NCBI GenBank assembly: GCA_949825065.1 | Contig: OX463848.1 | Coordinates: 32,765,491 to 32,829,490 of the forward strand | From: Odontocerum albicorne | Lineage: Eukaryota; Arthropoda; Insecta; Trichoptera; Odontoceridae | Reading direction: 5' to 3' | DNA length: 64,000 nt | Shown here: positions 3,886 through 57,785 of the stretch, piece by piece | How the letters are laid out: the number at the start of each line of letters is the position of its first letter | Numbering within the stretch: position 1 is the first letter of the stretch | The notes under the pieces: generated by a model | What the model saw: only the letters and a program-made list of their open reading frames with translations | Database searches by the model: none | Told to the model about the DNA's origin: nothing | Program-made: the position numbers and the translations under genes

Positions 3886-6465
3886 AACAGTTGTCAATCT
3901 TAAATCCTTTTTGTTCATCTTTCGGTTCCTTAATACTCAGCGATAAATATTTCATAAAAATTTAAGAAATTCAGATTCCAGTCATCATTATTTGTCAACT
4001 TACAAACATTTATTTTTAATTTTATAACTAAGATTTTAATTGTACAGATCAACTAACAGGTCCTTAAAAACTAGCATTATTAGTTCCATTAAAATTTAAG
4101 TGAAATAAATGAATTTGAAATTAACAATGTATTGATTAAAATAACCTTCTTCAAACATAACAACCCTTATTAATAACAAAACACCTTGTTTAATTTCAGT
4201 CGAGTACGATATTTGTTTACACAAGTAAGCACCAAAAGTTTCGTTGTGCATATTTGTTTAATTTTCTAGTAACCTGAGGGTTATGTAAAACCAAATTTAT
4301 TCACTCCCAGGGCGATCTAATATCTAAATGTTTCCTGCTGAAATATTGTTTAACATCGGACAGGAAGTTAGGAAAACAAAAAGGCTGTATCAATATTCAG
4401 GAACATTACCGACTCACTTGGTTACATAATTCATTTTAAAGTTAATTAATATTATCCTTCACTCGTTCAATATTTGGTATTGATATTCGGGATGCAATAT
4501 CCTGAAACTAAGACACTATACTCGTGTACAAAGCCAACACCGGAACCATGTATCAGATCAAGTAAATTTGGTAAGATTTTACTGTCTAATCTGGTGAATT
4601 ATATTGCAATTTGCACTAAAACTTAAAAATATTTTTAAAAAATATATATACTCGTATATACAGTGTTTCATTCAAGTATTCTTCAAATTCCCAACTCTTG
4701 GCCCTAAATATGAATATTTATTTTATTTGTCAAAAAAAAATATTTTAAGGAAGTAAGAGTTATTTCTAAAAAATAAAAGTAGTTTTACATAATTGTAAAT
4801 CGATTTATACAATGTTTTTATTAATATACACATATTCCCTTACGAAAATTTCAATTATAATATTTTGACAAAAGACAATGTACAAAAAACGAGCATAGAT
4901 AAATTTCACGAAAATAAATCGAGAAAACAACGCCTACATAGCGATATTCTGCTAACTTTATTAAGTAGAAAACTTCGAAAAACTTGATATCTGGACAGAA
5001 ACTTAACTGATCAGCAAAATTATTTCAAGTTGCAATAGCTAATAGATTCTGGTTTCGCCTAAAAACACTACTCAACACAGATTTTGTATCTAGGATCGTG
5101 TATTACATTTTTAATGTAATTTAGGGTGTAGAAACTGAATCTGACGTGTCATATAGAAGTTTGTAAAGGAGACATTTTTTCGTTCTGAATTTCACATTAC
5201 TTTTCACTCTTTGAATTTTTAGGTATGCATACATTCGAATAAAATAATGACTTTTGTGTCTTGTTTCAATTCAAATAAGCAGAGAAATCGTTTCATGATT
5301 GAGGAGGGGGGGGGAGGTATGTAAGGGAAAGATCATCAGGCTTTGACCTGCATGTCTACATCTGTAAGACGTGTACAAGGTCAATGTTGTACAGTAATGT
5401 CCATTGTTATCTTGTTAACATACAAAAATAGAAGAATTAGCAAGAAAATTCATAGGGTCAAAGTTGTAACGTGCGGAGAAGCTTTTAGCTAGGGTGAGTC
5501 ATGCTGTGTTCCTTCCTTTCTTGTCATTTCAAATCAGACTGTAAAACAGGAAGCATCTAGTATATTTTTTTCTTTATTTACGTGTATAACTGTATAAATC
5601 TATGCTTTGAATATGCATAATGTATTTTTATAAATATATTTTTTTGGGTTATGTGCCTCATAATTCATTTACTGAAATTTCAATTAAATGGGACATAGCT
5701 ATCGCTAAATCTCGAGTTGTATCAATCATTCCGACAAAATTTACACTAAAAACACAGAAAAAATCAATAACAAACCTTATAAAGAAAACGTCTTATCTGT
5801 ACTCTAAATGTATTCTTAGTAACCGAGGCAAAAATCTGACAAATCATATTTCTTGCATCACTTACTCGGTAAATCTAACTGAATGGTTTAAAGGGAAATA
5901 CTATGCAATGCCGTTCATTATCCCAATGATGTGACATGAGCTCAAAGACAACTTCACAAACTGTTATTATTGTCCCAGTAATATTTCTGCTCATTTAATT
6001 TAAACTAAACAAACCATCGAGTACCCAAATGCCCCTTCAGCCCTGAAAATGTATATACGAGTAATTCTCTGTTTAGAATGAAAGGTGCAGAATGGTCAGT
6101 GAAACTGACAAAGATTTGCCAACTCTAGAAAAAAAAACATCAAATATAATGCAGTAAAAACAACTAAACTATTAAGTCCGTGACTTATGACTATCAAGCA
6201 GAACTCTTGAGTATAAGACGACAGAAGTGGAATCATTTGGAACATAGCAAAATCCATTACATTCAACTAAAGTAATATTTATTATTACTTAAGTTACATG
6301 GTCTACAATTTGTCATGTATAAATAAATAAATTAAATATTATTTTTAAGAGCTTTTAAGGAAAATAAGTTTATATGTTTAAGTGGCTCGTTGATTTTATT
6401 TTATATCGCTACACACCCTTTGATATTCCTCATAACTCTTCCCTCGTCTGCATTTTACAACAGTA
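3886..6465. other. No gene recognised; long AT-rich stretch
   Basis: About 2.6 kb with no supported gene or repeat. It contains a run of guanines near 5307-5316 and copies of the 8-mer TACTCGTA/TACGAGTA at 4649 and 6056. The open frame at 5620-5934 has no known domain and ordinary local composition, so I do not call it. Confidence 0.55.
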
Positions 6466-6469
6466 TTTA

Positions 6470-6945
6470 ATTACCAACTCTGATGTTTGGGAGTGAAACG
6501 TGGACGTAGAAAAAGACTGAAAGGAACCGAATAAATGTTGTAGAAATGTGTGCACTGAGAATAATACATGGGGTAACAATGTATGACAGAACACGGAATG
6601 ATGTGATTAGGGATGAATGTGAACTAAAAGCTGGTATGTTGGGAAAGATGAAGAACTTATTCTGAGATGTTTGGGGCATGTGTAACAAATAAATGGCGAA
6701 GGAATTATTAAATAAATATACAGTGTAAATGTCAAAGTAGATGAAGACCAAGGAAAGTATTATTGAATGTTATTTTGAAAGAAGAAAATATAAGAAGTAA
6801 GAGAAATCGTAGAAGTTGTATAAGAAGATATTTGAATGTAGAAGAGGCGAATTGTGTATGTCAAAATAGGAAAACATGTAACTCGGTCCTTTCTACCAAA
6901 CCTAGTAGGGAAACAAAGTGATGGTATATATGTATGTTAAGAGAA
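6470..6945 (+). mobile_element. LINE-A 3' tail copy, best preserved
   Basis: Plus-strand non-LTR tail and the clearest copy here. It translates as F-G-S-E-T-W-T, then N-V-V-E-M-C-A-L-R-I-I-H-G-V-T-M-Y-D-R-T-R-N, then V-I-R-D-E-C-E-L-K-A-G-M-L-G-K-M-K, then a stop near 6665. The rest (R-P-R-K-like and I-L-K-E-E-N-like coding) is shifted between frames. It ends in GTGATGGTATATATGTATG. In intact elements this region follows the reverse transcriptase domain; no catalytic motif is present. A minus-strand open frame over the same interval is a shadow. Confidence 0.85.
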
Positions 6946-7744
6946 AAGAGTCATTTTAAACATTGATTTTCCCCATAAATATTTCTGTAACACCAAGTTC
7001 CACGAAATGATAATCGTATACAATTCTATGTCGAGTGTCTTTCTGATAAACTTGACGAAATAGAAAAAAGCCTTTTCCACTGGATTCAGCACCCCAAAGT
7101 TAAGTGTAATCACCTATTTTCATGCCAGATGAAGAAATAAAATTTTCATTTTGTAGAGTGGTGTAATCAACTTTCGTATAAGTTCCTTTAAATATATTAA
7201 AAATATATACTTCATACCCTTGAATGTAGCAGGATTATGCGACATTTTGTCTGTTCACAGTCGATATTGTTTTTTATTCTACTAAAAATCAACCATTGTT
7301 GTCCTTCTCTCACTTTGAAAATCAATAGTTTTACGCTTAAAACTCCAAGTTACCACCATCTTAAGTTAAGTAATTTCCAAACTTTTTGTCAGCAAATCTC
7401 TTGTAAAAGCTTCCTTAAGAGTTTGGATAAACTTCGAGGATTGAAAAACTTGGGCGCTACTTTTTCTTTCCTTATTGCGATGCATGATATACACGTATAT
7501 TATTATCCACCTGATATAAAAAGTAAAAAAAATATGTATATGCAACGTTCCTTAGTTTCTCTTGCCTTTACTACCACATTCTTAACTCAAAATTTCCTCT
7601 CAAATTCGTGTATTTTGCATTGAGTCATGTCTTGTCTATCCAAACATACTTCACCCCCATATTTCATTGAGTATTTGAAGATTTTGTATGAAACTCAGCA
7701 CCAATGACCAAGTATCACACCCATATATCGGAAGCGAGATTTCG

Positions 7745-7895
7745 AGATGTATGGCCGCGCGGTAACGTACTGGACTTCCGTGCGAAAGCTCACCGGTTCG
7801 AACCCCGCTCTGTGATACTTCCTTCGAAATAACACAGACATTTTTTCCGACTAGTATTTGGGCGTATGTATACCTATGATTTCCGTTACAGATAT
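7745..7895 (+). mobile_element. SINE-C copy with tRNA-like head
   Basis: A tRNA-like head has the A-box-like TGGCCGCGCGGTAACG and a strong B box GGTTCGAACC (7795-7804). The body is TCGAAATAACACAGACATTTTTTCC..TATTTGGGCGTATG, shared with 8690-8895 (minus) and 54405-54490. The putative TPsiC stem pairs poorly, so I read it as a SINE promoter and not a working tRNA gene. Confidence 0.7.
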
Positions 7896-8109
7896 TCTTT
7901 CAAAAAAAAAAAGTAAAGCTCCAAACCAATTATACTTGTAAATATATCGTCCACTTTAATTGGATTGATCGTAACAAAGGTGTTAGATACATACTCGTAT
8001 TTTGTTTTGCTTTAGTTCATCTTTAAACCTACAATTCTGCAAACGTCCGAAAATAGTTGAATACGATTCTGGAGTTCATTGGCATAAGAAAAAAATAAAT
8101 CATTACGAT

Positions 8110-8440
8110 CCAAAAACCCTAGATTTTTGTGCGCCGTGCGAATACTTTAAGACGGTTTGGACATGTGAAAAGAATGAACGGTGAAAGAATGACTAATTGA
8201 GTATACAATTCAAAAGTGCAAAGTGTGCGTGAAAGATGTAGATCGAGGAAAACGTGACTGGATCAAGTGAATTTTATGTTCTTCAAAATCTAGGTTTTTG
8301 AAGAACATAAAATGAGAAGAATAGATAAATGGAAGAGGCGAAAGTTGTGTGCTTGGTTATATCTTGTCAATATGTTATCTTTGCCTACTCCGCAAAGGAA
8401 ATGACGAGAAGACATGCATAGCATACATGTTTGTTTTGTA
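8110..8440 (+). mobile_element. LINE-A 3' tail copy containing a new hairpin
   Basis: Plus-strand tail. The coding memory is L-R-R-F-G-H-V-K-R-M-N-G-E-R-M-T, followed by R-C-R-S-R-K-T, then W-I-K and the 3' end TGCCTACTCCGCAAAGGAAA TGACG. At 8271-8288 and 8296-8313 an 18-bp perfect inverted repeat (ATTTTATGTTCTTCAAAA and its complement) replaces the normal I-L-K-E-E-N segment. Neither half is a simple duplicate of another LINE-A copy, so the palindrome arose within this copy. Confidence 0.8.
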
Positions 8441-8689
8441 TACACTTAGCTTCGTTTTCCTGTAAAAATTTGATATTTTTTTATTTTTGACAAACTTGGG
8501 TTTCAAACCCGAGATCAATAAATTACAAGTATAAGAAAATAATTATTCTTAATATACCACAGTGCTGCTGGACTTTATAGTCAAAGATCCCCTCGTCATT
8601 TCAATGTCAATTCAGTCAAAAACCAGGCTGCCCCGTTAGCTTTTGTTTTTTTTTTTTTTTTCAGAGAGTGAGCCGTTGTACACCAGCTA

Positions 8690-8895
8690 ACTCCCCGACC
8701 ACACAGCTGTACTGGATCCGATAGGAAAACGATTGGAAAACACCGGCATGTATTCCCTTTTTTTTTTAAATATGACCGAAGTGATATGTATCATTATATC
8801 CCCGAATATTAGGCGGAAAAAATACCTGTGTCATTCGAGGGAAGTAACACAGCGCAGGGTGCGAACCGGTGGCCTTCAGCATGAAATTCCAGTGT
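8690..8895 (-). mobile_element. SINE-C copy
   Basis: Minus-strand match to 7745-7895. The B-box complement GGTGCGAACCGGTGGCC is at 8858-8874, then TCGAGGGAAGTAACACAG, CACAGGTATTTTTTCCG (reverse strand) and the tail CGGTCATATTTA (reverse strand) around 8768-8780. Small open frames across it on both strands are not genes. Confidence 0.7.
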
Positions 8896-9264
8896 GTTAC
8901 CTCATTCTCAAAATATATAACGGGGAAAAGTAACATAACAAATATGCAATGGATACCAGGATTTTCATGCAACACTGGCTACAAAAAGCTTTAAATTTGT
9001 ATAACAAATAAATTAAGCCGTTTCCCTTACTTAAACTGTACACGATATACGAGTATACCCTTTTAAAGGTACTGATTTTCATATTACTTCCAACTCATAC
9101 TTCAGGAATTCAGAACAACTCTCGCCTGGTTTCAAGAGGATTCAGCACATATCCGGTCACACTTGCCTTAATCACGTACACAAGCCCGTGCACAGAATGA
9201 TAGATCTGTGTAATGCGAATCAGATCTATTTCATTAGCGATAATTGCTTTTTGAATAGCAAATA

Positions 9265-9660
9265 TGTTACGTCTTATCTAATTTTCACAGCTATGGGAAA
9301 CTGGCCCTTTTCTTCATTACGTTTATTTAATTATATTACACAATGTTACGTCATATCTAATGTTCACAGCTATGGCAAACTGGCCCTTTTCTCTATTACG
9401 TTTATTTAATTATATCATAATATGTTACGTCTTATCTAATTTTCACAGCTATGGCAAACTGGCCCTTTTCTCTATTACGTTTATTTAATTATATCATAAT
9501 ATGTTACGTCTTATCTAATTTTCACAGCTATGGCAAACTGGCCCTTTTCTCTATTACGTTTATTTAATTATATCATAATATGTTATTGTACGTCTTATCT
9601 AATTTTCACAGCTATGGCAAAATGGCCCTTTTCTCTCATACGTTTATTTAATTACATCAT
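9265..9660. repeat. Minisatellite, 79 bp x 5
   Basis: Five near-identical units containing GTTACGTCTTATCTAATTTT, CACAGCTATGGCAAACTGGC and CCTTTTCTCTATTACG, starting at about 9265, 9345, 9424, 9503 and 9580. The last unit has a 4-bp insertion. No frame is conserved as protein. Confidence 0.95.
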
Positions 9661-9839
9661 ATTTAAATAAATTAAAGTATTTTTTTCTACCATAAATTAA
9701 CAATTAGTGAAATAACATAAGAATGCATCACATGTCAAAAGTTTTAAGGTTCAGATTTTAAATGTTCGAAGTAATCACCGTCGCATATACGAGCATATGC
9801 TAGTATATATATATTTTATTACACTTTTTTATATACTCG

Positions 9840-9935
9840 TATAGTACAACCTAGTTAGTTTATTGTCACGTGACAAATCACTTCTAGCCAACCAAAAAGG
9901 TGCTAAAGGCTTTAAGTGTAAACTTAACTGGAGAT
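9840..9935 (-). mobile_element. SINE-B tail and partial body
   Basis: AGTACAACCTAGTTAG, TTATTGTCACGTGACAA and CACTTCTAGCCAACCA are the reverse complement of the SINE-B 3' end. It is followed by TGCTAAAGGCTTTAAGTG from the body. The tRNA head is absent. The 8-mer TACTCGTA sits immediately at the tail side (9834). Confidence 0.75.
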
Positions 9936-10417
9936 CTTTTTAAAATGAATTGTACCCGTTTAGTTTCATTTTTTTTCCATATGCTAATGTTTGGAGTTCA
10001 TCTTCAATGCCTGTCAAATAGTATTTAAGTATGTTATGAAAGGTTTCGACTCTAGCTATGGACTCTATATTAGAATATTCGACTTTTAAAATATAAAATT
10101 TAACAGGAACTCTTTTGTTTTTCCACGAATTATTTTTAACATTAGGACACATTTTGAACATCATATGTTAAGACTCTTCAGCCGAAATGATCCCGGTGTA
10201 TAATAAGACAAGTGTCTAAGTCCAACCATGTCATTTATCACCGGAAGTGTGTGTGTGGTTTATTACTTAAAAGGAAAAAAAATAAAAAGATGTGATTTTT
10301 TAGCATTCTTATTTATTTATTTTTTCTTATGGATTTATTTTTATATTTTTCATGTTTATTTATTACTTATATTTTTTATTAATTTTTACTTTTATTTTTT
10401 AACAAATAAATATGCAA

Positions 10418-10466
10418 GCACTCTCCTGCCTTACTAGGCGTATAGCCGTCCTAAGGCAGGTAGTGC
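10418..10466. other. Strong isolated stem-loop
   Basis: GCACT (10418-10422) pairs with AGTGC (10462-10466) and CCTGCCTTA (10425-10433) with TAAGGCAGG (10452-10460), separated by a 2-versus-1 nt bulge. The 18-nt loop can itself pair GGC with GCC. The arms are far more GC-rich than the flanks. It may be the subterminal hairpin of a decayed DNA transposon or a structured RNA; nothing seen here decides between them. Confidence 0.6.
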
Positions 10467-11235: not shown

Positions 11236-11610
11236 ACTTTTTCGTTATAAACACAGGTTTCCGACGGATCATCTGTTGCCTGACTATATTAGTTCACCTA
11301 CAGTATAAGCGGAGAGTATCAAGGTCTGAGTGAATGTGATGAAATGCAAGTAACCTAAACGAGTGAACATGTGCGTGTATACATGTATTAAAATAATTCA
11401 TTGTAAGAATTGTTATCTAGTTATAAGTTTATATGGTATGTGTTAACTACTTCTAAGAAACTAAATATTAAGATTATTTAAAATTTAAATTACATGTAGG
11501 AAATTAAAATTATGTTAGCTTATAGTTATACGAGTAATATAGGAATAAGATTAGTTATTGGGTAATTTATTTGTATACGTGTATAACCTTTGGCAAATGT
11601 ATGTATTATA

Positions 11611-19224: not shown

Positions 19225-19880
19225 CGGCGTTGAATTGTATTTTATTGTATTGTGTTATATGTTATTGTATTGTATCGTGTTGTATCGTATTGTGTCGTAC
19301 TCGTATTATATTATATCGTATTGTATTGAATTGTATTGTATTATATTGCATTGTATTGTATAATGTTGTGCTTTGTTGTGTTGTATTGTATTGCACTGAT
19401 TGTATTGTATTATATTTTATTATATCGCACTGTATCGTATTGTATTTTATCGTTTCGTATTATATTGTGTTGAAAGTTTATTGTATTGTTTAAAATCGTA
19501 TTGCATTGTATTATGTTATGTTTTTTGTGTTGTGTTGTATTGTATTGCACTGATTGTATTATATTTTATTGTATTGTATCGCATTGTATGGCATTGTATC
19601 GTATTGTATTATATTGTGTCGAATTGTATCGTATTTTATCGTATCGTGTTTTATGGTATCGTATTATATTTTTTTGTATTGTATCGTATTGTATTTTATT
19701 GTATTATATTGTATCATATTGTACTGTATTGTATCGTATTGTATCGTTTCGTATTGTATTGTATTGTGTTGGGCTGTATTGTATTGTGTTGTATTGCATT
19801 GTGTTGTAATCTATTGTATTGTAATGTGTTGTATTTTACTGTAATGTACTGTATTGTAATGTATCGTATTGTATTACGCT
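19225..19880. repeat. Degenerate pentanucleotide array (TTGTA)n
   Basis: About 650 bp of TTGTA, TCGTA and related pentamers. Because 5 and 3 share no factor, long frames stay open on the plus strand (up to 164 codons of Tyr, Cys, Ile, Val and Leu). They are artefacts. The array abuts the 3' end of a minus-strand SINE-B at 19895, so on the minus strand it reads as a (TACAA)n tail. Confidence 0.95.
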
Positions 19881-20480: not shown

Positions 20481-20699
20481 TTTGTTCATTGTTTGTCAAA
20501 ACTTTGATAGATTTTTATATTACATTACATTTTTGTTGTTTACAGTAAGACCTGGAAGATTAATTGCCTGTTAATATCAGATCATTTACGAGTATAAATA
20601 TGTTCTTGGAGAGTGAATAATAGCAGATTTATAATATAATGCATCCTTGTCTGACTCATATTTTAAGGTAATATGAGTTTTCTCTAAAGTAATCATGAT

Positions 20700-23124: not shown

Positions 23125-24000
23125 TTCTTTTGGCTCACATTCATCCTTAATAGTTGCATGTATTGTTCTATCACATCATATATATTTACATACCACATAT
23201 TATTTCCAATTCACATTCATCCTTAATAAAAACATGTATTTTTCTATCACATCACATATATTCTCGTACCACATATTATTTACAATTCACATTCATCCTT
23301 AATAATAACATATTTTGTTCTATCACATCATATACTCGTATATCTACATACCACATATTATTCCCAATTCACATTCATCCTTAATAATTACATGTATGTT
23401 ATTGTTTTATCATATACTCGTATATCTACATACCACATATTATTCCCAATTCACATTCATCCTTAATAATTACATGTATGTTATTGTTTTATCATATACT
23501 CGTACATCTACATACCACATATTATTCCCAATTTACATTCATCCTTAATAATTACATGTATTGTTCTATCACATCATATATATCTACATACCACATATTA
23601 TTCCCAATTCACATTCATTCTTAATAATTACATGTATTGTTCTATCACATCATATACTCTTATATCTATGTACAGACCACATATTATTCCCAATTCACAT
23701 TCATCCTTAATAATTACATGTATGTTATTGTTTTATCATATACTCGTACATCTACATACCACATATTATTCCCAATTCACATTCATCCTTAATAATTACA
23801 TGTATTGTTCTATCACATCATATATATCTACATACCACATATTATTCCCAATTCACATTCATTCTTAATAATTACATGTATTGTTCTATCACATCATATA
23901 CTCTTATACCTATGTACATACCACATATTATTCCCCATTCACATGCATCCTTAATAATTACATGTATGTTATTGTTCTATCACATCATATATGCCTTCAT
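23125..24000. repeat. Satellite, about 80 bp x 11, grown from LINE-A coding sequence
   Basis: Eleven units of about 75-85 bp with TTCTATCACATCATATA, CTACATACCACATATTATTC, CCAATTCACATTCATCCTTA and ATAATTACATGTAT. The minus strand of each unit contains I-K-D-E-C-E-L, the LINE-A tail motif V-I-R-D-E-C-E-L. The array therefore grew from within the LINE copy that flanks it. Some units carry an extra CTCGTA (23333, 23415, 23497, 23741) and others lack it. Open frames through it are artefacts. Confidence 0.93.
23333..23340. other. Putative TA-CTCG-TA excision footprint
   Basis: This unit reads CATCATATACTCGTATATCT, while sibling units at about 23170 and 23570 read CATCATATATAT. The difference is a 6-bp insertion: CTCG plus one TA. 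Confidence 0.5.
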
Positions 24001-24027
24001 ACCCATATATGATGTGATAGAACAATA
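23969..24027. repeat. Inverted repeat at the end of the satellite
   Basis: ATTGTTCTATCACATCATATATG (given in words: the unit start at 23969-23991) is repeated in reverse complement at 24005-24027 with a spacer of about 13 nt. The array therefore ends in an inverted unit fragment. Confidence 0.85.
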
Positions 24028-25764: not shown

Positions 25765-26990
25765 AATAATGTGTTTTTAAGTAACCCGGTATAAGTACCG
25801 AACTTTCTTTTAAAAGTAGCTGTATATTTTTGCTGACAATGCTTGAGTAGCATGCTACTCAACATTGAAAAAGCTTGAAAATGCTTCTTTTACATATAAC
25901 CTCTAAAAAATCATCATCAGCCTTACAACTCAGCATAGGTATTAACAACTTGCAGGATTATGTATCATCTATATCTCTCTACCGCATTCCTTCACCAATT
26001 GCTTATACTAAGAGTGCAACAGTTCTCTATCATACTATCCGACTATCTCAGCTTCCGTCACCCCGCTCTCTTGCACCTCATCAGATCACTGAACAAAGGT
26101 TGCTATGCAGGGTCAATGTTCTGCATGCGGTATAAGTGCCCAAGCCAAGTACAGTCTAACAATTTTGAAAACTTTTGCTACGAAAACTTCGCCATACAGA
26201 AAGAAGAGCTTTTCGTTTTACCTCTGCGTCCACGCGTCATTTTAATTAATCAAACCATATACTTACGAGTATAAACAATTTTTCTCTCAAGGTTTTGACA
26301 AATCTTTCGTCACACTTTGGAAGGGCTAGGTATCCAGGGAGTAAGTAAGCGCTAGTCTTAGCAATGTTTTTTAAAGTTGTTTTTTTATGTTATTATTGTC
26401 CTCAGTGAGATACAGCCAAAAGTCTAGTTTTCTGGGAAAATGACAAATGAAAGGCAACAAACCCAGATCCATTAAAGGTGTGTATCCAAATTAAATTACC
26501 TGTTGTTTCTTTTTGCAGATTATGTTTATTTCTTGTCGTGTGTAAAACAAATAAATAAAAAATAAATAAATACAATATAGAGTGGACAAGACTTAAGTGA
26601 GAGATAAGGCCAATATAATATCTACTAGTATTTGCCAACAGTACCTCCTGGCTTATTTCATCTTAACATTCATAAATATACTTTCGTATTCAGTTTAACC
26701 TTATATAAAGATACCTTTTTCATTTAATCGTATGATACCATTAATTAACATACCCAAATAAGTGATTTGGACCTAATTCAAAGCGTGGTTAAGAATTAAT
26801 TTATGTACGAAGATTTTCGTGCCAGTTTTCCTCTAGTAAAATGTATTTTAAAGTTGTTACCGCGTTGAGTAAGCTTAAACTATGAATGAGGTTATATAAA
26901 TATTTAAGCTAATTCAATACGGCAAAAACTTTAAATAACATTTTAAACTAGAGATAGGACCCTTTTTTATTTTTTTACCAGATAGGGGCC
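25765..26990. other. No gene recognised
   Basis: A patch at 25920-26150 is less AT-rich and stays open in two overlapping plus frames, but I recognise no domain or splice signals. The rest is AT-rich. Confidence 0.45.
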
Positions 26991-31174: not shown

Positions 31175-32500
31175 GTTGAAGGAAACTTGATATTGACCAC
31201 GCGATATTCAATTTTCAACATTTCAGAATTTAACGAAGTAACATGAATTTTATAGACTCTAGTTGACATACTACTGAGGGATGATGTATCAAATTTTAGC
31301 TTTAAATCGCCCAGCTATGCGTTGGGTTATATCTGTTAATTCGTGCTCTAACTTGTTGAAATGCTAAAAACTTTTAAACCTTAGTGGTACACATTAAAAA
31401 ATATTGCAGCAATAATAATAGACTAAAGAAATTTAGAAAAAAAATATTTGTATTATTTACGATTTTTCTTCACAAAAGAATACTCGTTTAAATAAATACA
31501 TAGAAAAGATAAATATCTAATAACGTCGTCAAGACTTGGAGTATAAAATATTCTGATGGGTAAAATTACTTCTTCCGTGTATTGAAGAAGTTAAAAGCTC
31601 TAAACATCTCACAGTTGATCATTAAAAGTTAAGCTTTGTCAAGCATTTACTCGTATAATAAGTTACGGTGATTTGTTCGTCTTGGAAAAGTTTATATAGA
31701 ACATCTTCAAACGAAAGTAGCCTAATTATAAATTTTCCTCAAAAATATTATTTAAAATGAAAATTTCAATTTTTTGTGAGTTTTAAAATCTTCTTAGATT
31801 AAAAGTTGCCTTTTTTGGTCATTATGTAAATTATTTTCATACTATTATCGTAATTACCAGTTTTTTTTAATTATCTTTTTTTAACCAACACTGCGTAATT
31901 AATGTTGTCTGGAAAGTAGTTTTGCATTTATCGGATAGATTTCTTTAAGATAAAATTTTCGTTGCTTACTTCATTCCAAACATGCTGCATGTAAATTATT
32001 ATAAATAGTAAGAGTAAGCGTATTTTTTTCGACTATTATTTACCCAAATTCCTGAAGTATAATTCAGAAAATGGACCAGATAGGTTCTTTTTTCAGTGAA
32101 TGATGATTTTTATAACGGTGAAGGAAAAACTGCACCTCAGACCAAAAATGTTCAGTTTATGAAAAGTATTCAGTAAGTGATTGTGTGTATCAAATGTGGT
32201 TTAAATATCAAGGTAATATGACACTGGTTTCCGCTATGGAAGACCGATTTCAACTAATGAAGACCTAATCAGCGTTTTTATTGAGAATAACCAGGATTCT
32301 ACGAACTCGAGAGATTGCTAAGATATTGAAATATATACTTTTTGTTATAGACAATTGTTTCCATCAGCCACCTCACTAGGCTCAGAGCCTGATCTGAAAC
32401 AGCTGACTTATACCCATCATATTTATGCATATAAAATAACATACATAACATAATCATTAGTAATTTTATTAACACTGAGATACAGTAAGTCACGAAAGGT
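31175..32500. other. No feature recognised
   Basis: AT-rich. The minus-strand open frame at 32299-32493 has no recognisable domain. Confidence 0.5.
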
Positions 32501-34744: not shown

Positions 34745-36255
34745 TGCTGCTATATTTTACACATTCAATGTGAGACTAATATAAGAGGCCCGTCTCGGAG
34801 ATAACTTATTCATTCTGTACAAATCAATACTCTAGTCTTATGATCGAATATTAGACCGTAATATATGTTGATTTATTTCTAGAAGTTACGTTACTATGCG
34901 CAAGTAATGCAGACTGCAAAATCAATGAAAATGATGCTCGAGTGGTGACCACACACCTAAAAGAGGCATCCGTCAATACAACGGATCGATAGCAGGTAGT
35001 TTGCTGGGATGCTGTGGATTTAAAGCGCTCGAGGAAGAAAGGAAAGTTCTTACATCCAGCCGTGGACAAGAATCTGTAAAATTGATAACGTGCTACGAGT
35101 ACAATAATTTCACCAGGATCTCCGAATGTGAATATAAATTACGTTAAATAATAAATGTACTGAATATAACACAACTTAAAATCAATAATTCAGTCTGTTA
35201 AGTGTCATGGAGTTTTTGGCTGGCGTTGTGTGTAACGATTTGCTATGGATCCTTTATGCACGGTTAAAAGAAACATGATTAATATTAATAGAAACATGAT
35301 TATAATTTTTCAACAGAAACACTTTTCAAGAAGTTAAAGGTAATTGATTTCTTCGAATGTAAAAATAATTATGTTAGAACACAAAGCAGTTTTTTTAATG
35401 TGGGTTGCAGATATCAACAAAAATATAACACTGATTTAGTCTTCCGTCATGTTGCGGTGATATCTTGTCAACACCTACACTTCAACAATCTTCTTTTGTA
35501 TGCATTTAAAAATATTGTAACATTGAAATGAACATTTATGAAACAAGAAGGCGATATTTATGACTAAGAAAAATGTCATATAAGCATACGGCCTTTGAAC
35601 TGAAAGGTATTGTGTCCTTGGCTCCTAAGTTATTTAACATAGAACCTTAAGTCATGAAATGTTTTTTAAAGTTATGGTTAGTATAAAACTGAAATTTAAA
35701 AATTCCTGATAGAAATCACCGAATTGAGCAAGAGATAACGTCAACACTAGATGGAAACTAAAATTATACTAAAATCATGCAATGGAGAAGTATTTCATAT
35801 GCAGTTCCCTTTTCCTTAATTTTTGTTGGATAAATCCATAAACTCATAAATGAGTGCTATTTTGTTATCACTAATCAGTGAATGACTTTTTGTAAAATAA
35901 ATATTTCTTATTTAAATGCTTTTTTTGGTGGTATGTGATCTTTATACATATTTAGATGTATTGGTTAATTTTTTTGTTTTGTGAAATCTTCCTGCCACAA
36001 GACGGGCTAACCATCAGACAAGAAGAGTGTTTTTTTTGTAAATATTTAAAATAATAAAGTAATAAATATATAAAAAAAAAATTTAAATTACTAATTATAC
36101 ATTAGTAAATCTGTTTCCAGCCCCCGCCGCTTTCATGCATCATTAAAGAGTGACAGAGTGGCGCTTTGACATGAGCAGTGAAAAGTGAGAAGCTTTTGAT
36201 ATAACAGTGCATAACTTACGCTAATATAGAACGTGTGATGAAAAGCTGTTTGATA
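34745..36255. other. No gene recognised
   Basis: A minus-strand frame at 34851-35069 has no domain. A GC-richer patch with CAGCCCCCGCCGCTTTCATG lies at 36119-36140. Otherwise the stretch is AT-rich and unassigned. Confidence 0.5.
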
Positions 36256-36260
36256 TGGTT

Positions 36261-36842
36261 GTAGAGATCATGATGCAGTTGTAATTATGTATGTGATAAC
36301 TTGGGATTTAAGTGTAGAGATCATGATGCAGTTGTAATTATGTATGTGATAACTTGGGATTTAAGTGTAGAGATCATGATGCAGTTGTAATTATGTATGT
36401 GATAACTTGGGATTTAAGTGTAGAGATCATGATGCAGTTGTAATTATGTATGTGATAACTTGGGATTTAAGTGTAGAGATCATGATGCAGTTGTAATTAT
36501 GTATGTGATAACTTGGGATTTAAGTGTAGAGATCATGATGCAGTTGTAATTATGTATGTGATAACTTGGGATTTAAGTGTAGAGATCATGATGCAGTTGT
36601 AATTATGTATGTGATAACTTGGGATTTAAGTGTAGAGATCATGATGCAGTTGTAATTATGTATGTGATAACTTGGGATTTAAGTGTAGAGATCATGATGC
36701 AGTTGTAATTATGTATGTGATAACTTGGGATTTAAGTGTAGAGATCATGCAGTTGTAATTATGTATGTGATAACTTGGGATTTAAGTGTACAGATCATGA
36801 TGCAGTTGTAATTATATATGTGATAACTTGGGATTTAAGTGT
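36261..36842. repeat. Minisatellite, 53 bp x 11, nearly identical
   Basis: Eleven units of GTAGAGATCATGATGCAGTT, GTAATTATGTATGTGATAAC and TTGGGATTTAAGT at steps of 53. The first nine are essentially perfect; the tenth lacks 3 bp and the eleventh has single substitutions. The homogeneity shows a very recent expansion or conversion, with the variant units at one edge. Confidence 0.98.
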
Positions 36843-37799: not shown

Positions 37800-38275
37800 T
37801 AGCTAAATTTATTTATAAAGGGTTTTTCAACTTGAGCGGTTTTTTTAATTCTTTGATAAAACACAGACAGCGTCGTGAACTTGCCTGGGTCTTGTAACAT
37901 TTGAGAAGTGTAATGTATGACGTTTATAAAAATGGAGTCGTATGCAATATAACAACGCGTTCAAATTGTCAAATTATATTATGTGTTGTAATATCCAGGA
38001 ACGGTGATGTTAATTGCCCACCAAGATCATGTGATCTGACACCGTTGGGCTATTTTCTCTGGGGTTACACGAACATCCAGGTCTATAAGAATCACCTCCA
38101 ATCAATCTCTGAGCTGAAGGACGAAATTATTCGCGTTATCGGTGAGTTAGAACCGCAATTATGCCAAAATGTCATCGAAAATTTTGACAAAAGAGTGGAC
38201 ATCTGTGGAGCTGCAAGAGGTGGACATTTGGCGGATATTGGTTTTTTGTGTTTAAATGTCATATATTATACTTCA
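37800..38275 (+). pseudogene. Tc1/mariner-superfamily transposase, C-terminal fragment
   Basis: The open frame at 37901-38368 contains, from residue 31, I-S-R-N-G-D-V-N-C-P-P-R-S-C-D-L-T-P-L-G-Y-F-L-W-G-Y. This is the third-Asp block of the IS630/Tc1/mariner DDE domain. Next come S-E-L-K-D-E-I-I-R-V-I-G-E-L, then V-I-E-N-F-D-K-R-V-D-I-C-G-A-A-R-G-G-H-L. In active relatives the block reads L-T-P-L-D-Y-F-L-W-G; here the catalytic Asp is Gly at residue 50, so it is inactive. The first two catalytic residues and the DNA-binding domain are missing. The sequence left of 37901 may hold the 5' end. An RTE-like element is inserted or abuts at 38300 in the opposite orientation. Confidence 0.85.
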
Positions 38276-38299
38276 ATGACCAAAAGTTTGCGAATTGTG

Positions 38300-39065
38300 T
38301 GTTTTATTCTTCTTCTTCTTCTAGATCTTGCGATCTGTTTAAACAGGACTTCAGTTTTGGTCCTGTGACGAAGATGTCCAACTTTTTCTCCATCTCTTTG
38401 GTAGACGTCCCGGTGGTCGACGACCTTCTGGAATGTCGTGCATTACAATCGTAGGTATTCTCGCGGAGCTATCTTCTCAACGTGGTCCCTCCAGAATCGT
38501 CTTCTCTGCCTATTCCATCTCACGATGTCCTCAATGTTACAACTTCTGCGGATTTCCTCATTAGGTATCCTATCTCTAAAGGTTCTACCTACGATAGGCT
38601 ACAGTGCTTTCATTTATGTTGTTCTGAGGAGGTGTTTCGTTCTTACAGAGTCTGCTCTTGCTTCGATTCCGTAAGTCATAACAGGTATTATGCATGTTTT
38701 GTATATTCTGACTTTGCTTTCCACCAACATGTATTTATTGCCCCAAACAGTGTTCCTCAGGCATCCAGAGAGAACTGCTGGTTTATTGGTCTGTTCTTTG
38801 ACTTCATTACATAGATCGTTGCAGCTAGATATCTCCACACCCAGGTATTTAAACTTCATGACCTGTTCTATGGGTTTATTTTCCACAACCGATTTGCACC
38901 TAAGAGGCTTTCTGGATATTGTTAGACATTTTGTTTTGCCGACGGATATCGTCATGGTTTATCTCTCAGATGCAAGATGAGACCTATACAACATTCTTTG
39001 TAGATCGTCTTCGCTTTCTTCTAGTATAGTTGTGTCGTCAACATAGCATACCACGCTGATATGTT
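38300..39065 (-). pseudogene. RTE-like LINE: end of reverse transcriptase and C-terminus
   Basis: Minus strand, 5' at about 39065. It reads C-Y-V-D-D-T-T-I-L-E-E-S-E-D-D-L-Q-R-M; YVDD (39045-39034) is the reverse transcriptase active-site motif carrying the metal-binding Asp pair. Then come M-T-I-S-V-G-K-T-K-C-L-T-I-S-R and F-K-Y-L-G-V-E-I-S-S, then R-I-Y-K-T-C-I-I-P-V-M-T-Y-G-I-E, which are the conserved blocks after the palm. After stops it continues R-T-F-R-D-R-I-P-N-E-E-I-R-R and V-R-W-D-R-Q-R-R-R-F-W, then R-P-P-G-R-L-P-K-R-W-R-K-S-W. It ends in (AAG)n at about 38322-38305. Endonuclease and most of the polymerase are missing, and several stops make it non-functional. Confidence 0.9.
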
Positions 39066-44435: not shown

Positions 44436-44443
44436 TACGAGTA
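44436..44443. other. Putative TA-CGAG-TA excision footprint in LINE-A tail
   Basis: Removing CGAGTA from CATACATACGAGTACCATTA restores CATACATACCATTA, the same as the LINE-A 3' end at 1250 (CATACATACCATCACG). Confidence 0.5.
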
Positions 44444-51580: not shown

Positions 51581-51729
51581 AAATGTCAGATTTATTTTAT
51601 AAACCGGAGCCAATCCAGAATTTTGAGAGACGTTTTCGTACTAAACACCCCAAAATCTATAAAGTAAACGAACTTTCGTTAAAAAAAGTTGAATTATATA
51701 AAGCAGTGTTATGTAGAGAATCTTTAAGT

Positions 51730-52440
51730 CTTTTTTTTACTTATAACCTTGTTAGAAGAAATTTGTTTTGGTAATAAATTCAACATTTATAAATTTTACG
51801 AGACAAAGTTAAAATATATCAATTATTTACAAATTTTGATAATTATATGTTATTAAACAAACCCCAATTCGCTAGATCTCTTGGTCAATGTTTAATTATG
51901 TCTATTTTGTGAATACTTCATTTCAATTACATTTATAGTGATTTACGCCAGTGGTTCCCAAAGTGTGTTGCTTACAAGAGTGGAATATTCCAATATTTTT
52001 ACTAAAATGAGACTAACATTGTGTGCTGTGCTGATGCGATGATAGGAAGTTTGAGTCTAAGAAATGAGAAAATGGACTTTTTTTTAAATAACGTTGTTAC
52101 CTTTCACTCAACAATTGGTATGAAGCTGCGTAACTCTTGTTGGAAGAAATTGCCTCTTGGTAATAAATACATTTATAAACTTGACAAGACAGAGTAAAAT
52201 ACGAGTATATCAATGATTTACATATCTTGATCATATAACCAATCACAAGTCACATGATCTTTTGGTCAATATTTGATCACATCTATTTTGTGAATACTTC
52301 GTTGCAAAAACATTTAATAGTTCACATCATTGGTTCCCAAAGTGTGTAGCCTTTCATTAAAATGAGACATTGGGTTTTGAATCGAACTATCAATGTGCTG
52401 ATGCGGTGGTAGGATGTTTGATTCAAAGATTTAAGAGCAT
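51730..52440. repeat. Tandem duplication of about 390 bp spanning a hAT boundary
   Basis: The segment from CTTGTTAGAAGAAATTTG through TGGTCAATGTTTAATTATG, CTATTTTGTGAATACTTC and GTTCCCAAAGTGTG to TGCTGATGCGATGATAGGAA (51740-52050) recurs at 52135-52430 with many substitutions. The duplicated unit contains both the left flank and the left terminus of the hAT element, so duplication followed insertion. Confidence 0.85.
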
Positions 52441-53278
52441 GTGCGGTGAACAACAGGTTCACTTATCCCACTAATAACGATATATTTATTCAATGATGCA
52501 TGAATGATTGTTCAAAATATATAATAATGCGCTGAACTGGTGGAACGTGAGAAATAGACGCCAAATTCCCATACTATGTTATATATTTTGTATTACATCC
52601 TTAACTGCCCCCCCCCCCCTTATCTCGACGAAAAATTTTCTGCGGTTTTTCGATCATGGACCTGCGTGGCGCTCAGACAATGATTGTTTATTGGCTTTCC
52701 CAGTTCACCGCTCTTCTTTTTTACGTTTTCCATGCAATGAGACTTTGGAACCAGTTGCAAATCAATGTTAAACTCGCTCCGTCCTTGGCATGTTTTAAGA
52801 AGCGACTGAAAAAAAACCCTTATTTTCTATTAAGTGTTTCATTCCTGATTTTTCTTTCCTCTCCACCATTCTTTCATTTTCCTTTTAACATATTGATGAT
52901 ATATCACTTTTACTGAAATATGTGGGTGTTCATAAATTTGATAAATATGAATGATCCTTGGAATATTTTTGCGACAATGTAACTTGCTTTTTTTTTGTTT
53001 TTTGGAAGGCATTATTGCCTGGCAATAAACCCGCCAGATTATACTCGTATTTACAATGAAGGGTTCAATAAATGAATAAATAATTTAATACTTGGATGTT
53101 TTTTTTTGTAAGTTTTGAACACGTTTATCGTTCATTTTTAAGCCTAACTAGCTTCTAACGAAAAATCCTGATGCACTAAAAATAGGTTTTATCACAACAT
53201 ATTAAATCTTGTAATTTCATAAGGTCTTTAATTTGGTGGCTAAATTTAAAAAAAAAGAATACTGTTTGGGAAACACTG
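51949..53278. mobile_element. hAT element remnant with 8-bp target duplication
   Basis: The left end CAGTGGTTCCCAAAGTGTG (51949) and the right end reversed CAGTGTTTCCCAAACAG (ends 53278) are hAT-type inverted repeats. ATTTACGC (51941-51948) and ATTTACTC (53279-53286) match at 7 of 8 positions as the target duplication. The interior carries a tandem duplication of the left end and an inserted LINE-C tail (52510-53050). No transposase is seen. Confidence 0.75.
52510..53050 (+). pseudogene. LINE-C C-terminal region and 3' UTR, copy 2
   Basis: It starts near L-N-W-W-N-V-R-N-R-R-Q-I-P-I-L. After a C-run (12 C, 52608-52619) it reads P-L-I-S-T-K-N-F-L-R-F-F-D-H-G-P-A-W, then in another frame A-M-R-L-W-N-Q-L-Q-I-N-V-K-L-A-P-S-L then A-C-F-K-K-R-L-K. 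The R-L-W-N-x-L-P, S-x-x-x-F-K-x-x-L-K ending is the conserved terminus of CR1/Jockey-group ORF2. The 3' UTR aligns with copy 1 (TTCATTCCTGATTTTTCTTT). It finishes TTTGGAAGGCATTATTGCCT GGCAATAAACCCGCCAGATT A, the complete SINE-B-type tail. Confidence 0.85.
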
Positions 53279-53564
53279 ATTTACTCGATTGGAGACAATA
53301 AAGTATTGTATTCAAGTCTAGACGCCTTCAATAAAGGCTCTATTCAAGAACGACTTATCGATAATTTCATTTCAAAGAACTATGTGTATCATTATATAAA
53401 TTTGATTGCAAGTATTGTCAAAAGCTCAAGTTGTTCTTTGGAAAACGTTTTATCTTGTGACCCTGGTGAATTTAAATTGAGTGTACTAGTTTTTTTAAAT
53501 ATAAAAGCGATTTTATATCTCATTTATCCGTATCCATATATACGAGTACACACGCATTACGTCT

Positions 53565-53710
53565 AACCCGGGAGTAGCTGATTCGGTTACCATTGATTCT
53601 ATTTTTTTTAAGTTCCAGTTGCTTTTTATTAAAAGCCTCTTTAAATTTTTTGTGATCGGATAGAAGAGGTTACCACATGACTAAAAATTGCCAGGTTGTA
53701 CTATTTATTA
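53565..53710 (+). mobile_element. SINE-B copy, shortened
   Basis: Decayed head (TAACCCGGGAGTAGCTGATT CGGTTACC), body TAAGTTCCAGTTGC..AAAAGCC, tail GATAGAAGAGGTTACCACAT GACTAAAAATTGCCAGGTTG TACTA. The 75-bp minisatellite begins about 30 bp beyond its 3' end. Confidence 0.65.
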
Positions 53711-53747
53711 TGAAAATATAATAAACAACATAATATTTCTATTTTTT

Positions 53748-54420
53748 CTATGATAAATAAAATAAAATTTGATAATCCAACTTATTCATGTGCTACTCCT
53801 TTCGAATGACACAGGTATTGTTTTATGATAAATAAAATAAAAGCTGATAATCCAACTTATTTATGTGCTACTCCTTTCGAATGACACAGGTTTTTTTTAT
53901 GATCAATAAAATAAAAGCTGATAATCCAACTTATTCATGTGCTTTTCCTTTCGAATGACACAAGTATTTTTTTATGATAAATAAAATAAAAGCTGATAAT
54001 CCAACTTATTCATGTGCTACTCCTTTCGAATGACACAGGTATTTTTTTATGATCAATAAAATAAAAGCTGATAATCCAACTTATTCATGTGCTATGCTTT
54101 TCGAATGACACGGGTATTTTTTTATGATAAATAAAATAAAAGCTGATAATCCAGCTTATTCATGCGCTACCCCTTTCGAATGACACAGGTATTTTATTAT
54201 GATAAATACAATTAAAGCTGATAATCCAACTTATTCATGTGCTACTCCTTTCGAATGACACAGGTATTTTTTTATGATAAATAAAATGAAAGCTGATAAT
54301 CCAACTTATTCATGTGCTACTCCTTTCGATTGACACAGGTATTTTTTTATGATCAATAAAATAAAAGCTGATAATCCAACTTATTCATGTGCTATTCTTT
54401 TCGAATGACACCGGTATTTT
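53748..54420. repeat. Minisatellite, 75 bp x 9
   Basis: Units of ATGATAAATAAAATAAAAGC, TGATAATCCAACTTATTCAT, GTGCTACTCCTTTCGAATGA and CACAGGTATTTTTTT, with GATAA/GATCA variants alternating among units. The piece TTTCGAATGACACAGGTATT TTTT is SINE-C body sequence, and the array runs into a SINE-C tail at 54405-54490. Confidence 0.95.
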
Positions 54421-54490
54421 TTCCCCCTAGTAGTATTCAAGGGTATAATGATAACTACGAGTATAACTTCGGTCATATCTATTGTTAAAA
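54405..54490 (+). mobile_element. SINE-C 3' part
   Basis: TTTTCGAATGACACCGGTAT TTTTTCCCC, then AAGGGTATAATGATAACTAC and CTTCGGTCATATCT, aligns with 7820-7895 and with the minus-strand copy at 8690-8895. It contains a CGAGTA insertion at 54456. Confidence 0.7.
54456..54463. other. Putative TA-CGAG-TA excision footprint in SINE-C
   Basis: Here: ATAATGATAACTACGAGTAT AACTTCGG. In the minus-strand SINE-C at about 8775-8800: ATAATGATACATATCACTTC GG. The 6-bp difference is CGAGTA. Confidence 0.45.
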
Positions 54491-54504
54491 AAAAAACAAA
54501 AACA

Positions 54505-54660
54505 TACCGATGTGCTCCGATCGTCTCACTACAGTACATCTGGTCCAGCCTGAAGTGAAAACCAAACTGGACCTTTATTTTTAAATTGAGTACTAACGGA
54601 AATCCAGCTGTAACCTCCGGACTGTAAAACAATCATCTTTGCAACTAGGCCAGAGGCTGT
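54505..54660 (-). mobile_element. SINE-B head and body without tail
   Basis: On the minus strand: CTCTGGCCTAGTTGCAAAGA (A-box region), CAGTCCGGAGGTTACAGCTG (B-box region), then GGTCCAGTTTGGTTTTCACT TCAGGC. The tail is replaced by unrelated sequence. Confidence 0.7.
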
Positions 54661-54744
54661 CTCTCTTTTCTTGAAAGTTATTAATTTTCAATCAATATCA
54701 TTTGATGTTACAATAGTCAACGCAGGAAACAATCATCGCATTTA

Positions 54745-54927
54745 TTAATAAGTATGACTGCTCACCCGGAGAAGACCTAAAACAATTTTAGCTGCCTTAG
54801 TTGGGCCTACAACATTTCCTATTGGTGTATCGATGTGTAAAGAGCTATCGATATTAAAACCTAGAAAATTATTTGATATATTTAAGACAATCTTAGGAGT
54901 ATTACTTGTTAGGATAAGAGAAGGCAA
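54745..54927 (-). pseudogene. Possible LINE reverse transcriptase fragment
   Basis: Minus-strand frame of 60 codons with I-S-N-N-F-L-G-F-N-I-D-S-S-L-H-I, then K-A-A-K-I-V-L-G-L-L-R. The F-L-G-x-x-x-D-S-x-L, then x-K-x-x-x-x-L-x-x-L-R pattern resembles the post-palm block of Jockey/CR1/I LINEs. It is short and lacks catalytic residues. It may belong to LINE-C upstream sequence or another family. Confidence 0.4.
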
Positions 54928-55039
54928 TATATTTTTACTCCCTTGTGGCTACTGGACAGCAATTTCACACACCTGCTAAAGGCTGAAAAGGTAATGTTTT
55001 ATCTCAGCACTTAGTAACAATTGTCGCACATGTTAGACG

Positions 55040-55200
55040 TATACGAGTGTTGTGCTTATCCAGTGCGTAGTATTCTCAACAAGCACGATGGTGAACTGTC
55101 AGTAACTTGCCTGCTCCAGTGGTTCTTAAGCCAACGTCTCGATAGCTTGGGTCGAAGACAGTTTTGTCTCCCGACTCTTCAATATGTCCATATCATCATT
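55040..55200 (+). mobile_element. SINE-A 3' part
   Basis: CCTGCTCCAGTGGTTCTTAA, GAAGACAGTTTTGTCTCCCG and ACTCTTCAATATGTCCATAT follow the SINE-A order seen at 28400-28505. Confidence 0.65.
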
Positions 55201-55204
55201 TCGG

Positions 55205-57785
55205 ATATATCAATACAATGAAAAAGAAATAGAACGCCAGGAAACTGAAGAAATTAGGAAAGCTTTCCTTGACACATAGATTAGAGGATGTTGAAAAAAA
55301 AAGGCAATTGAACGTTAGAAATAAACAGGCATAATTGAGAAGCCTTAAATTACCCAAATGTTGTTTATTCATCGTCATACGAGTATATAATTAAGGCTAT
55401 TTTTTAATAACAAGTAATTCCTTTATAAACCAAAATGAAAGCATTGTGCTGTAAAGTCACCATTTCCTTCTATTTTTTGTTTAAAATCCCCTGATTTTTG
55501 CAACCTCGCCAGCGCTAATTTCTATTTATTTTGATATCTATCCAACTCTTCCCCATTCACCCAGCCCCGAACCAATCGTCTCTGTCCACATAATGCTAAC
55601 GCTACCCGATTTTTTAAACTCCTATAAGTCTTCCTGTTTTGGATTGGCCTTCAAAATTACATATAATTTTTTTGTTTTAAGCAATTGTATGGTTGAATAG
55701 GACGAGAAACACCACAGCTGTGATTAAATTTCAGCATGGGTTGTTGGGAATTCATTCGTTTATACAATACATTAAAAAAAGACAAAGTTCAATAACATCT
55801 GAAGTCTAAACCTTTTGAAATGAAAAAAAAAACAATATTTTCAACTCCAGTGGTTGAGATATAATACGAATGCTGGATATGAATACTTACATTGAAATAA
55901 AATAAGAAATATTAGACAAAAGTACTTTTCGAATGATTTATTAAATTTAATTAAAGCATTGTAACTTCAGCCATTTTATGTGCCATAAATTAATATTTTA
56001 AACTTGATTAAACCGGGAACGATTATTTCATAGAGTTTAATAGCACTCATTTATCCCAACCTTCTCATATTTCTCTATATTATGAACACCTTGAGCCAGA
56101 AGTCTGAAGGGTTAAGGAGACAATAATATACTGATAACTACCCACCGCATCCAACTGATCCTTTAACAATGGACTTCCTTATATAATATAATATATGCAG
56201 CTATACGCAAAACCCCTTATTACGTTATATATAACCATACACGTGACAGAGTAAGTGGTTTTAGGTGCTATTTCCTCTTGAAGGAGAGCGGGCCTAAGTG
56301 GAACTCCTTTGATTATATTATAGGAATGCTCATTCGTCTCAGAAAGGATTCAAGGATCTTATTACACAATCTCAAGATTAAGAGAACCCCTTGAATGTGC
56401 TCGAACTACCATGGTGAGGAAAGAACGTTATTTAATTATCTGTATTTATTAGTATAATGTAAGTCACTTTCGACCATTAACATGTTCCCCGCGGGGAGCA
56501 CAAACGCCTGTGATCTGACGACAATCCAAGTTTCAAATCACAAATACTTAAAAAAAAAGACACAAAACCGGAATAAAAATTAAACTTAAATTTAAAATAA
56601 TCTTTATTCTAGCGACATCTCTGAAAACCTTGTCAAATAATATATTAGTTTATGAGATATTGTTGAATAAACAGAGCGCCGAATTTTTTTGTTTTCTCAA
56701 TATTTCCAGCTATTGCGTCACATGTAACGACCTGTCGCGCGGATCGAGTCCTGCGATGAGTCTCTCTTACGTAAATAAACATTACTAGTGATATATGCAT
56801 TTGATTGGGTGAGTGTAATGAATCATTGCTTTGATCATAGCATTCCTTTGTTTATTTTACGTAATGTTTAGTTTATCTCCTTTATTTAATGAGTCTCCTT
56901 AAGAGTAATGACTATTATTTATTATCAGAAAATTACTTAAGTGTCATGTTTACTTGGTGTTGTAATCAAATATCAGTGGTTCTAAACAAAATATGTGTTT
57001 AAACTTAGAAATTAAAACTGAAATTGTGCCGCGCACAGGATTCGTGGAATTTGATTTTTAACGCGGTGAACAGGTTAAAAACGGTTACAATAAGCACATT
57101 CAAATAAGAATTTAAACCGTCGCATAAATATAAAATCCACTTGTTACAAAACATTTAAACTTTACATTTTTAAATAATAACACATTCCATTATTTTATAT
57201 ATCATGTGTTTTTCGGTTGTACTTAACATGACATATATAATTTACCTCAACGCCATATCTTTACCACATCCAAGAAATATCACATTTCTTCATTCTTCGA
57301 AGAAATTTTCAACTTATATCGGATGTTAAATTTTTTAAGTTTTATCAGTCGAAGCAATAAATTGTCTAGCATGATCAATTTGGAAATTTATTTTAGTATA
57401 TTGAATCATATAATTCCATAGTGACTTTGATGTGGTGGCAAAAATCGTCATATTATGAGAGGATTGCCTATTTGAATTATGCTAAAAAAAATATCAGAAA
57501 TACTTGCAAACTTCTTTACGTAAGTTATTCGCCTTTTATATTCGATCATTTTAAAACTTTTTTATTGCTTATTGACGTCGAGAAGTTTGACATTGTGAAG
57601 TGTTTTACTGAGTTTAAAAAAAATTATTAAATCAACGGTAAAAAATACAGCGTGAGCGTGAATAGAGGTCGTGGTAGTAGAATGATCAGGAAATTTTCAA
57701 AGAAAGAAATAGTAGAAGTCAGAGAAATTAATGGAGTAGTATGAGCAGATATATTGATGTTGATTAGGGGAAAACAGAAATGTCC
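55205..57785. other. No gene recognised; long unassigned stretch
   Basis: AT-rich. A short GC patch with GACCTGTCGCGCGGATCGAG lies at 56730-56749. The frame at 57421-57630 has no domain. A weak LINE-A-like piece (GGTCGTGGTAGTAGAATGAT) at 57667 is not certain. Confidence 0.45.

Follow-up and report, generated by a model that had tools for sequence, protein, structure and literature searches.

Why does a single 8-mer, TACGAGTA (reverse complement TACTCGTA), recur throughout a 64,000-nt stretch of the genome of Odontocerum albicorne (contig OX463848.1; this whole stretch is hereafter called the window)? An earlier note on this DNA had listed 21 copies of the word, described it as CGAG inserted together with a duplicated TA, and taken it for the footprint left by the excision of a TA-targeting transposon. 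We followed the word in the window, in an independent sample of 20 stretches of 10 kb each (200 kb) drawn from two other contigs, C1 and C2, and, for some patterns, in the whole genome (1,287,057,991 bases; 1.29 Gb). The footprint reading is supported by the excess of the word over expectation, by paralogs that lack it, by a target preference of the restored sites and by resident transposons with CGAG ends. We consider TACGAGTA/TACTCGTA to be, with a probability of about 0.86, the repaired scars of a CGAG-ended cut-and-paste transposon of the Tc1/mariner type.

Abundance of the word and its behaviour as an insertion

All 21 listed positions proved to be exact, on one or the other strand. Expectations were derived from 100 dinucleotide shuffles and from a second-order Markov model, with tandem arrays masked where stated. 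The over-representation claimed for the window was borne out, since its shuffled versions contained a mean of 1.39 copies and a maximum of four. Four of the copies are amplified within one satellite (23333, 23415, 23497 and 23741) and that at 19298 sits in a TTGTA-type pentamer array, so that approximately 17 independent events remain. After masking, the window contained 16 copies against 1.33 expected from the Markov model, which made TACGAGTA its most surprising 8-mer after the A-run. The masked sample contained 70 against 5.07 expected, and among all 8-mers with at least ten copies the word ranked first by Poisson surprise; when 8-mers were ranked by simple ratio without masking, it came sixth in the sample, behind a C-run and words taken for repeat-family words. 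In the comparison with other TA-N4-TA words, likewise proposed in the earlier note, it was first of 133 over window and sample together (86 copies against 6.39 expected; the runner-up reached a log10P of 4.2). Two further stretches, from contigs C9 and C20, yielded eight copies in 16 kb, unmasked. The two orientations were balanced (42 to 44), and the density in sampled sequence was about one copy per 3 kb; scaled from the excess in three contigs only, we estimate some 420,000 scars genome-wide. Some copies must be due to chance or to base composition, the sequence being AT-rich with normal CpG: 1.33 of the 16 in the masked window are expected on this basis, as are 5.07 of the 70 in the masked sample. 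As the explanation of the word, chance is refuted by a log10P of 63.9 over window and sample and by summed one-base neighbours without excess, and we give it practically no weight.

For the comparison with paralogs, CGAGTA was removed from each site by a script and both versions were compared with 288,112 bases of available sequence (the window and loci L001–L028). Enough flank was present at 105 sites, of which 19 in tandem arrays and three in coding sequence were dropped, leaving 83 dispersed sites; as a control, 900 of 2,070 other TA-N4-TA sites underwent the same procedure. No paralog spanned the junction at 65 of the 83 sites. The other 18 comprised 11 with gapless empty paralogs and no filled one (three of these also have places with another gap), two with filled paralogs only and five unclear cases. 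Among the control sites 732 were without a paralog, whereas the 168 with one included 111 filled, 11 empty, six of both kinds and 40 unclear. Disregarding the unclear and mixed cases, empty sites outnumbered filled ones 11:2 for TACGAGTA and were outnumbered 11:111 in the control (P = 1e-8). Ancestral sequence had been named beforehand as the outcome that would refute the proposal. At sites with informative paralogs TACGAGTA behaves as a 6-bp insertion. Seven of the 11 sites, among them 44436, 53042 and 54456 in the window, have one or more empty paralogs that read TA at the junction.

Copies lacking the insert had been proposed for three repeat families. In the satellite, the long and short units (82 and 76 bp) differ by exactly CGAGTA, and two units of 86 bp read TAAGAGTA. 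In the SINE-C repeat, the copy at 54456 is matched by an empty one at 8722–8851 and by four more gapless empty paralogs. The claim for the LINE-A repeat (44436) stood in part: in three paralogs elsewhere precisely these six bases are missing, and two of the three read TA at the junction, whereas the paralogs within the window show a net difference of 2 bp. A paralog without the insert was also found for 52200, where CGAGTA ties with two shifted forms as the best 6-bp deletion; because of a 1-base gap nearby, this site was scored as unclear.

It is improbable, in our judgement, that TACGAGTA is ancestral sequence or a functional motif (a binding site or a repeat consensus) spread along with repeats. 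Two families, at L011_5579 and L025_7983, do carry the word or a close form of it as old sequence, and it occurs in the coding sequence of one mariner-like family. However, outside the satellite no two window sites were linked by an alignment, empty paralogs without any filled one exist for 11 sites, and tandem doubles of the word are common; an ancestral origin is contradicted for the empty-paralog sites, most firmly for the seven whose paralogs keep TA.

Target preference, doubles and age

Once CGAGTA is removed, the restored flanks fit the target preference ATATATAT. In the window, where three satellite copies and that at 19298 were left out of the 21, the 17 remaining sites matched it at 5.82 of 8 positions against 4.18 for the background of TA sites outside masked arrays; the corresponding values for 68 sample sites were 5.51 and 4.19. 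None of 20,000 resamples reached the observed match in either set. The word also ranked first for this fit, both among 31 TA-N4-TA words with at least six copies and, in the sample, among 34 with at least 15. A preference for bendable TA sites is reported for Tc1, Tc3, Himar1, Sleeping Beauty and Minos (PMC3878927).

The tandem double TACGAGTACGAGTA occurs 935 times in the genome, against 62 for the reversed pattern, with some of the occurrences in tandem arrays, and a simple model of re-insertion at random TA sites predicts about 748. These doubles are the event repeating on its own product, that is, they are nested. Random repair would give mixed doubles (TACGAGTACTCGTA, both mixed forms counted) about as often as doubles of the same orientation.

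The near-variants of the word listed in the earlier note did not hold up as decayed copies: one-mismatch neighbours numbered 34 against 36.5 expected in the window, and 127 against 126.5 in the masked sample. As such variants are not enriched, the scars look young and the listed near-variants are attributable to chance. The resulting bound on decay is about 3.2% per site, ignoring the error in the expectation. On a rough balance, drawn up by hand with an assumed mutation rate of 3e-9 per site and generation, 420,000 scars within 3% divergence need approximately 0.04 departures per genome and generation, which would be within reach of ordinary transposition.

The absence of detectable decay, together with footprints that appear to outnumber elements (about 420,000 against 5,613 exact ends of one family), would also suit a developmentally programmed removal, in which elements are cut from body tissue but retained in the germ line, so that an assembly made from somatic DNA would display the scars. 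We regard this as very improbable: scars have been copied into satellites along with the units, the nested doubles point to recurrent rounds of the process in inherited DNA, and ordinary germ-line hopping suffices.

Source elements and the excision step

If the words are excision scars, an element with both ends beginning in CGAG would insert at TA and duplicate it. On its departure the transposase would cut the flanking strand four bases inside each end, leaving CGAG overhangs; the two overhangs would meet, pair imperfectly and be sealed by end joining, after which mismatch repair would settle on CGAG or CTCG, turning TA into TACGAGTA. The four-base stagger, the route of repair and the identity of the source element are inferred. 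The footprints of Sleeping Beauty, Mos1 and ZB are alike in their TA target and in the end-joined overhangs between two TAs; the overhangs of Sleeping Beauty-type elements and mariners are reported as two or three bases long, whereas here they would measure four bases and take a single exact form, met about once per 3 kb of sampled sequence. For Tc1/mariner excision footprints generally a range of 2–4 bp is given (PMC7913693). In a model of overhang self-pairing with DNA parameters, CGAG scored −10.9 kcal/mol, 16th of 240 non-palindromic tetramers, a result compatible with this route but not telling. A literature search on the idea of tandem G-A mismatches found nothing. The title of a study on Minos reportedly speaks of chromatid repair by heteroduplex formation.

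In window and sample together, the word TACGAG was followed by TA 105 times and by something else 71 times, and the recognisable element ends among these 71, identified by eye, were those of mariners. Ends of a Macrosiphinimar-like family lie in the window, in L018 (both ends) and in L019 (with one changed base); a second mariner family (L009 and L028, with which L016 aligns) may be likened, by its terminal inverted repeat (TIR), to the vertumnana type of Rhodnius; and a further mariner end is present in L015. The search for CGAG...CTCG ends beside TA, suggested in the earlier note, thus succeeded: mariner ends reading TACGAGG are present in thousands, with 5,613 exact ends reading TACGAGGCATATCC... 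(pattern TACGAGGCATATCCAGAAAGTAAG) in the genome and none for the reversed pattern. Macrosiphinimar-like copies are 95–98% identical in aligned pieces and 91–98% in ten further loci, and the family is, judged from these sequences, young.

One complete mariner was found (L018:1818–3154; 1337 bp counting both TAs), with CGAG beside TA at both ends, a CGAGG TIR of about 28 bp and an open frame of 354 aa. Its product resembles the Mos1 transposase (E = 5.5e-48), carries the Pfam domains PF01359 and HTH_48, and is of the DD34D type, the spacing of 34 residues between the last two aspartates having been counted by hand. Ten loci fetched with a mariner end are all internally deleted, and in nine of them a second end can be recognised; the relic in the window is one such deleted copy. 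It belongs, with L030, L031 and L038, to a subfamily of at least four copies in which CTATGCG replaces CGAGGCG at one end, and the footprint word that the CTAT end would predict, TAATAGTA, is in no clear excess (22 against 15.8 expected). The TIRs reported for the Macrosiphinimar lineage of mariners from aphids (Apismar1.1, Dnomar1.1 and Mpmar1.1; filed under irritans, DD34D) and for Rpmar33 of Rhodnius, CGAGGCGTGTCCAGAAAGTAAGTGTACT and CGAGGCATGTCCAGAAAGTAAGTGTA, may be compared with CGAGGCATATCCAGAAAGTAAGTGTACT here, and the 354-aa frame and 1334 bp of Apismar1.1 with the 354 aa and 1337 bp of our copy (PMC5490172, PMC4678618). The differences are that the main texts of these two papers do not contain the word footprint, and that here there are thousands of ends, with all ten copies looked at internally deleted. 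The named relatives of two transposase pieces, among the 120 matches listed for each, were from arthropods such as aphids, ants, bees, beetles, a horn fly and spiders. No relative turned up when viral contigs were scanned with the mariner protein, with the TIR and with the Minos end.

Other transposon remains were seen alongside. The window contains a relic of a second transposase of the Tc1/mariner superfamily (37898–38365), some of whose relatives, in arthropods, are named Tc3 or DD41D. A third family, 96% identical between L017:536–683, L018:266–413 and L026:2127–2274, has a coding sequence (MENLKYRVIYEYEFHRG, by eye) that contains TACGAGTA by happenstance, and an upstream end that looks like TAGGTCCTTACATATG.

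As the source we favour, at roughly even odds, the resident mariners with CGAGG ends and, among them, especially the young Macrosiphinimar-like family. Less probable, although to be taken seriously, is a Minos-like Tc1 element that is now rare or lost here. Minos, a Tc1-like element of Drosophila hydei, is reported to leave a characteristic six-base footprint (PMC3386967, PMC10992017), and its end, TACGAGCCCC, given in a primer as TA-CGAGCCCC (PMC3680223), would by analogy in end and footprint length leave CGAGTA; it would fit TACGAGTA with no extra assumption. Three-base mariner products, moreover, are not in excess. Nevertheless, none of the TACGAG words in the window or the 200-kb sample reads TACGAGCC (the whole genome was not searched for the Minos end), and Pfam scans of 20 and 129 frames, overlapping sets from this one window, detected transposase domains only in the mariner relic. 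Another CGAG-ended family outside the sample takes the remaining probability.

Several observations weigh against the scar reading, or against a mariner as the source. The density of the word is uneven (variance 7.0 against a mean of 3.5 per 10-kb stretch), and only one copy, far fewer than the average of the sample would give, was present in 30,240 bases of ten loci (L029–L038, at C1:0.3–1.3 Mb). Two of the 13 clear paralog comparisons show TACGAGTA as old sequence, with five more unclear, and three further copies lie within the frame of one mariner-like family. Four of the 11 empty sites (L010_6754, L012_5226, L014_9746 and L023_1348) have no TA-bearing paralog; there the six-base insertion is supported but a former TA is not, and our confidence was slightly lowered for this reason. 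The one assembly available yielded no locus at which an element and its footprint were both seen. Finally, mariner footprints in vivo are reported to be consistent with cleavage two or three bases within the end (PMC2642840). A three-base cut would give TACGATA, which is at background (34 against 35.1 expected in window and sample) and was rejected as a footprint, so that a mariner source needs an unusual stagger. A CAG-type footprint was likewise rejected: the excess of TACAGTA in the window (20 copies, 9.7 expected) was not repeated in the sample (31 copies, 30.7 expected), and the flanks of this word were at the background target preference.

Tentatively, and at somewhat less than even odds, the scar reading can be taken further: a mariner, and not a relative of Minos, would cut four bases inside its ends, and partly pairing CGAG overhangs would nearly always yield the same exact scar. 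Some thousands of copies would then have made about 420,000 recent hops, leaving scars that greatly outnumber copies and form a countable record of departures.

Features of the window and meaning of the scars

The copies of the word and the main repeats of the window are collected in Table 1. Two tandem repeats lie elsewhere in it, one of 11 bp (TGATCCAACCA, 13 copies) at 62105–62247 and one of 53 bp (11 copies, 98% matches) at 36260–36842. Three arrays have amplified a TACGAGTA inside their unit, at L001:1–500, L023:6400–7300 and window 23135–24008, with spacings of about 45, 64 and 82 bp. A stretch of 54 bp at 9788–9841 is bounded by TACGAG and CTCGTA, and its arms match at 10 of 24 bases; it is possibly an element nearly emptied by incomplete excision, or a tiny element. 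Facing TACGAG/CTCGTA pairs in the window enclosed no intact element, and neither Rfam, at gathering scores, nor ARAGORN returned anything from it.

Table 1. Positions of TACGAGTA copies and associated repeats in the window
Feature	Positions	Strand	Remarks
TACGAGTA footprint	4649..4656	-	exact copy; single alignment across it shows no clean empty site
TACGAGTA footprint	6056..6063	+	exact copy
TACGAGTA footprint	7992..7999	-	exact copy
TACGAGTA footprint	9048..9055	+	exact copy
TACGAGTA footprint	9834..9841	-	exact copy; paralog comparison ambiguous
TACGAGTA footprint	11529..11536	+	exact copy
TACGAGTA in TTGTA-type pentamer array	19298..19305	-	possibly array variation; excluded from the event count
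TACGAGTA footprint	20587..20594	+	exact copy
Satellite	23135..24008	-	82-bp units with TACGAGTA (23333, 23415, 23497, 23741); 76-bp units without
TACGAGTA footprint	26264..26271	+	exact copy
TACGAGTA footprint	31648..31655	-	exact copy
TACGAGTA footprint	35094..35101	+	exact copy
TACGAGTA footprint in dispersed repeat (LINE-A)	44436..44443	+	three empty paralogs elsewhere in the genome
TACGAGTA footprint in repeat	52200..52207	+	empty paralog at 51744-51971
TACGAGTA footprint in repeat	53042..53049	-	seven gapless empty paralogs with TA; four with another gap
TACGAGTA footprint	53541..53548	+	exact copy
TACGAGTA footprint in dispersed repeat (SINE-C)	54456..54463	+	5 of 5 paralogs gapless empty, four with TA
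TACGAGTA footprint	55378..55385	+	exact copy
Internally deleted mariner relic	60313..61276	+	TA on each side; 3' end CTCG/TA, 5' end TA/CTATGCG

This kind of scar is already known. To our knowledge, work on excision scars has mostly dealt with small numbers of them in transposition assays. In the texts accessible to our literature search no description of a comparable genome-wide excess of footprints was seen, and TACGAGTA and 'footprint' occurred together only in work that is unrelated, judged by title and abstract. Within the literature covered, the novel features are the scale, the absence of decay and the nested doubles; the four-base stagger would be new as well, if mariners are the source. 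In the present genome one such scar heads the 8-mers of the masked sample in Poisson surprise; decay could not be detected in it, and each copy marks one departure. Such scars would allow germ-line excisions to be counted and the frequency with which breaks are joined, as opposed to copied back, to be estimated; the restored sites would map target choice, and the scars would date the transposition wave. If the resident mariners made them, the reported mariner stagger of two to three bases fails for this branch.

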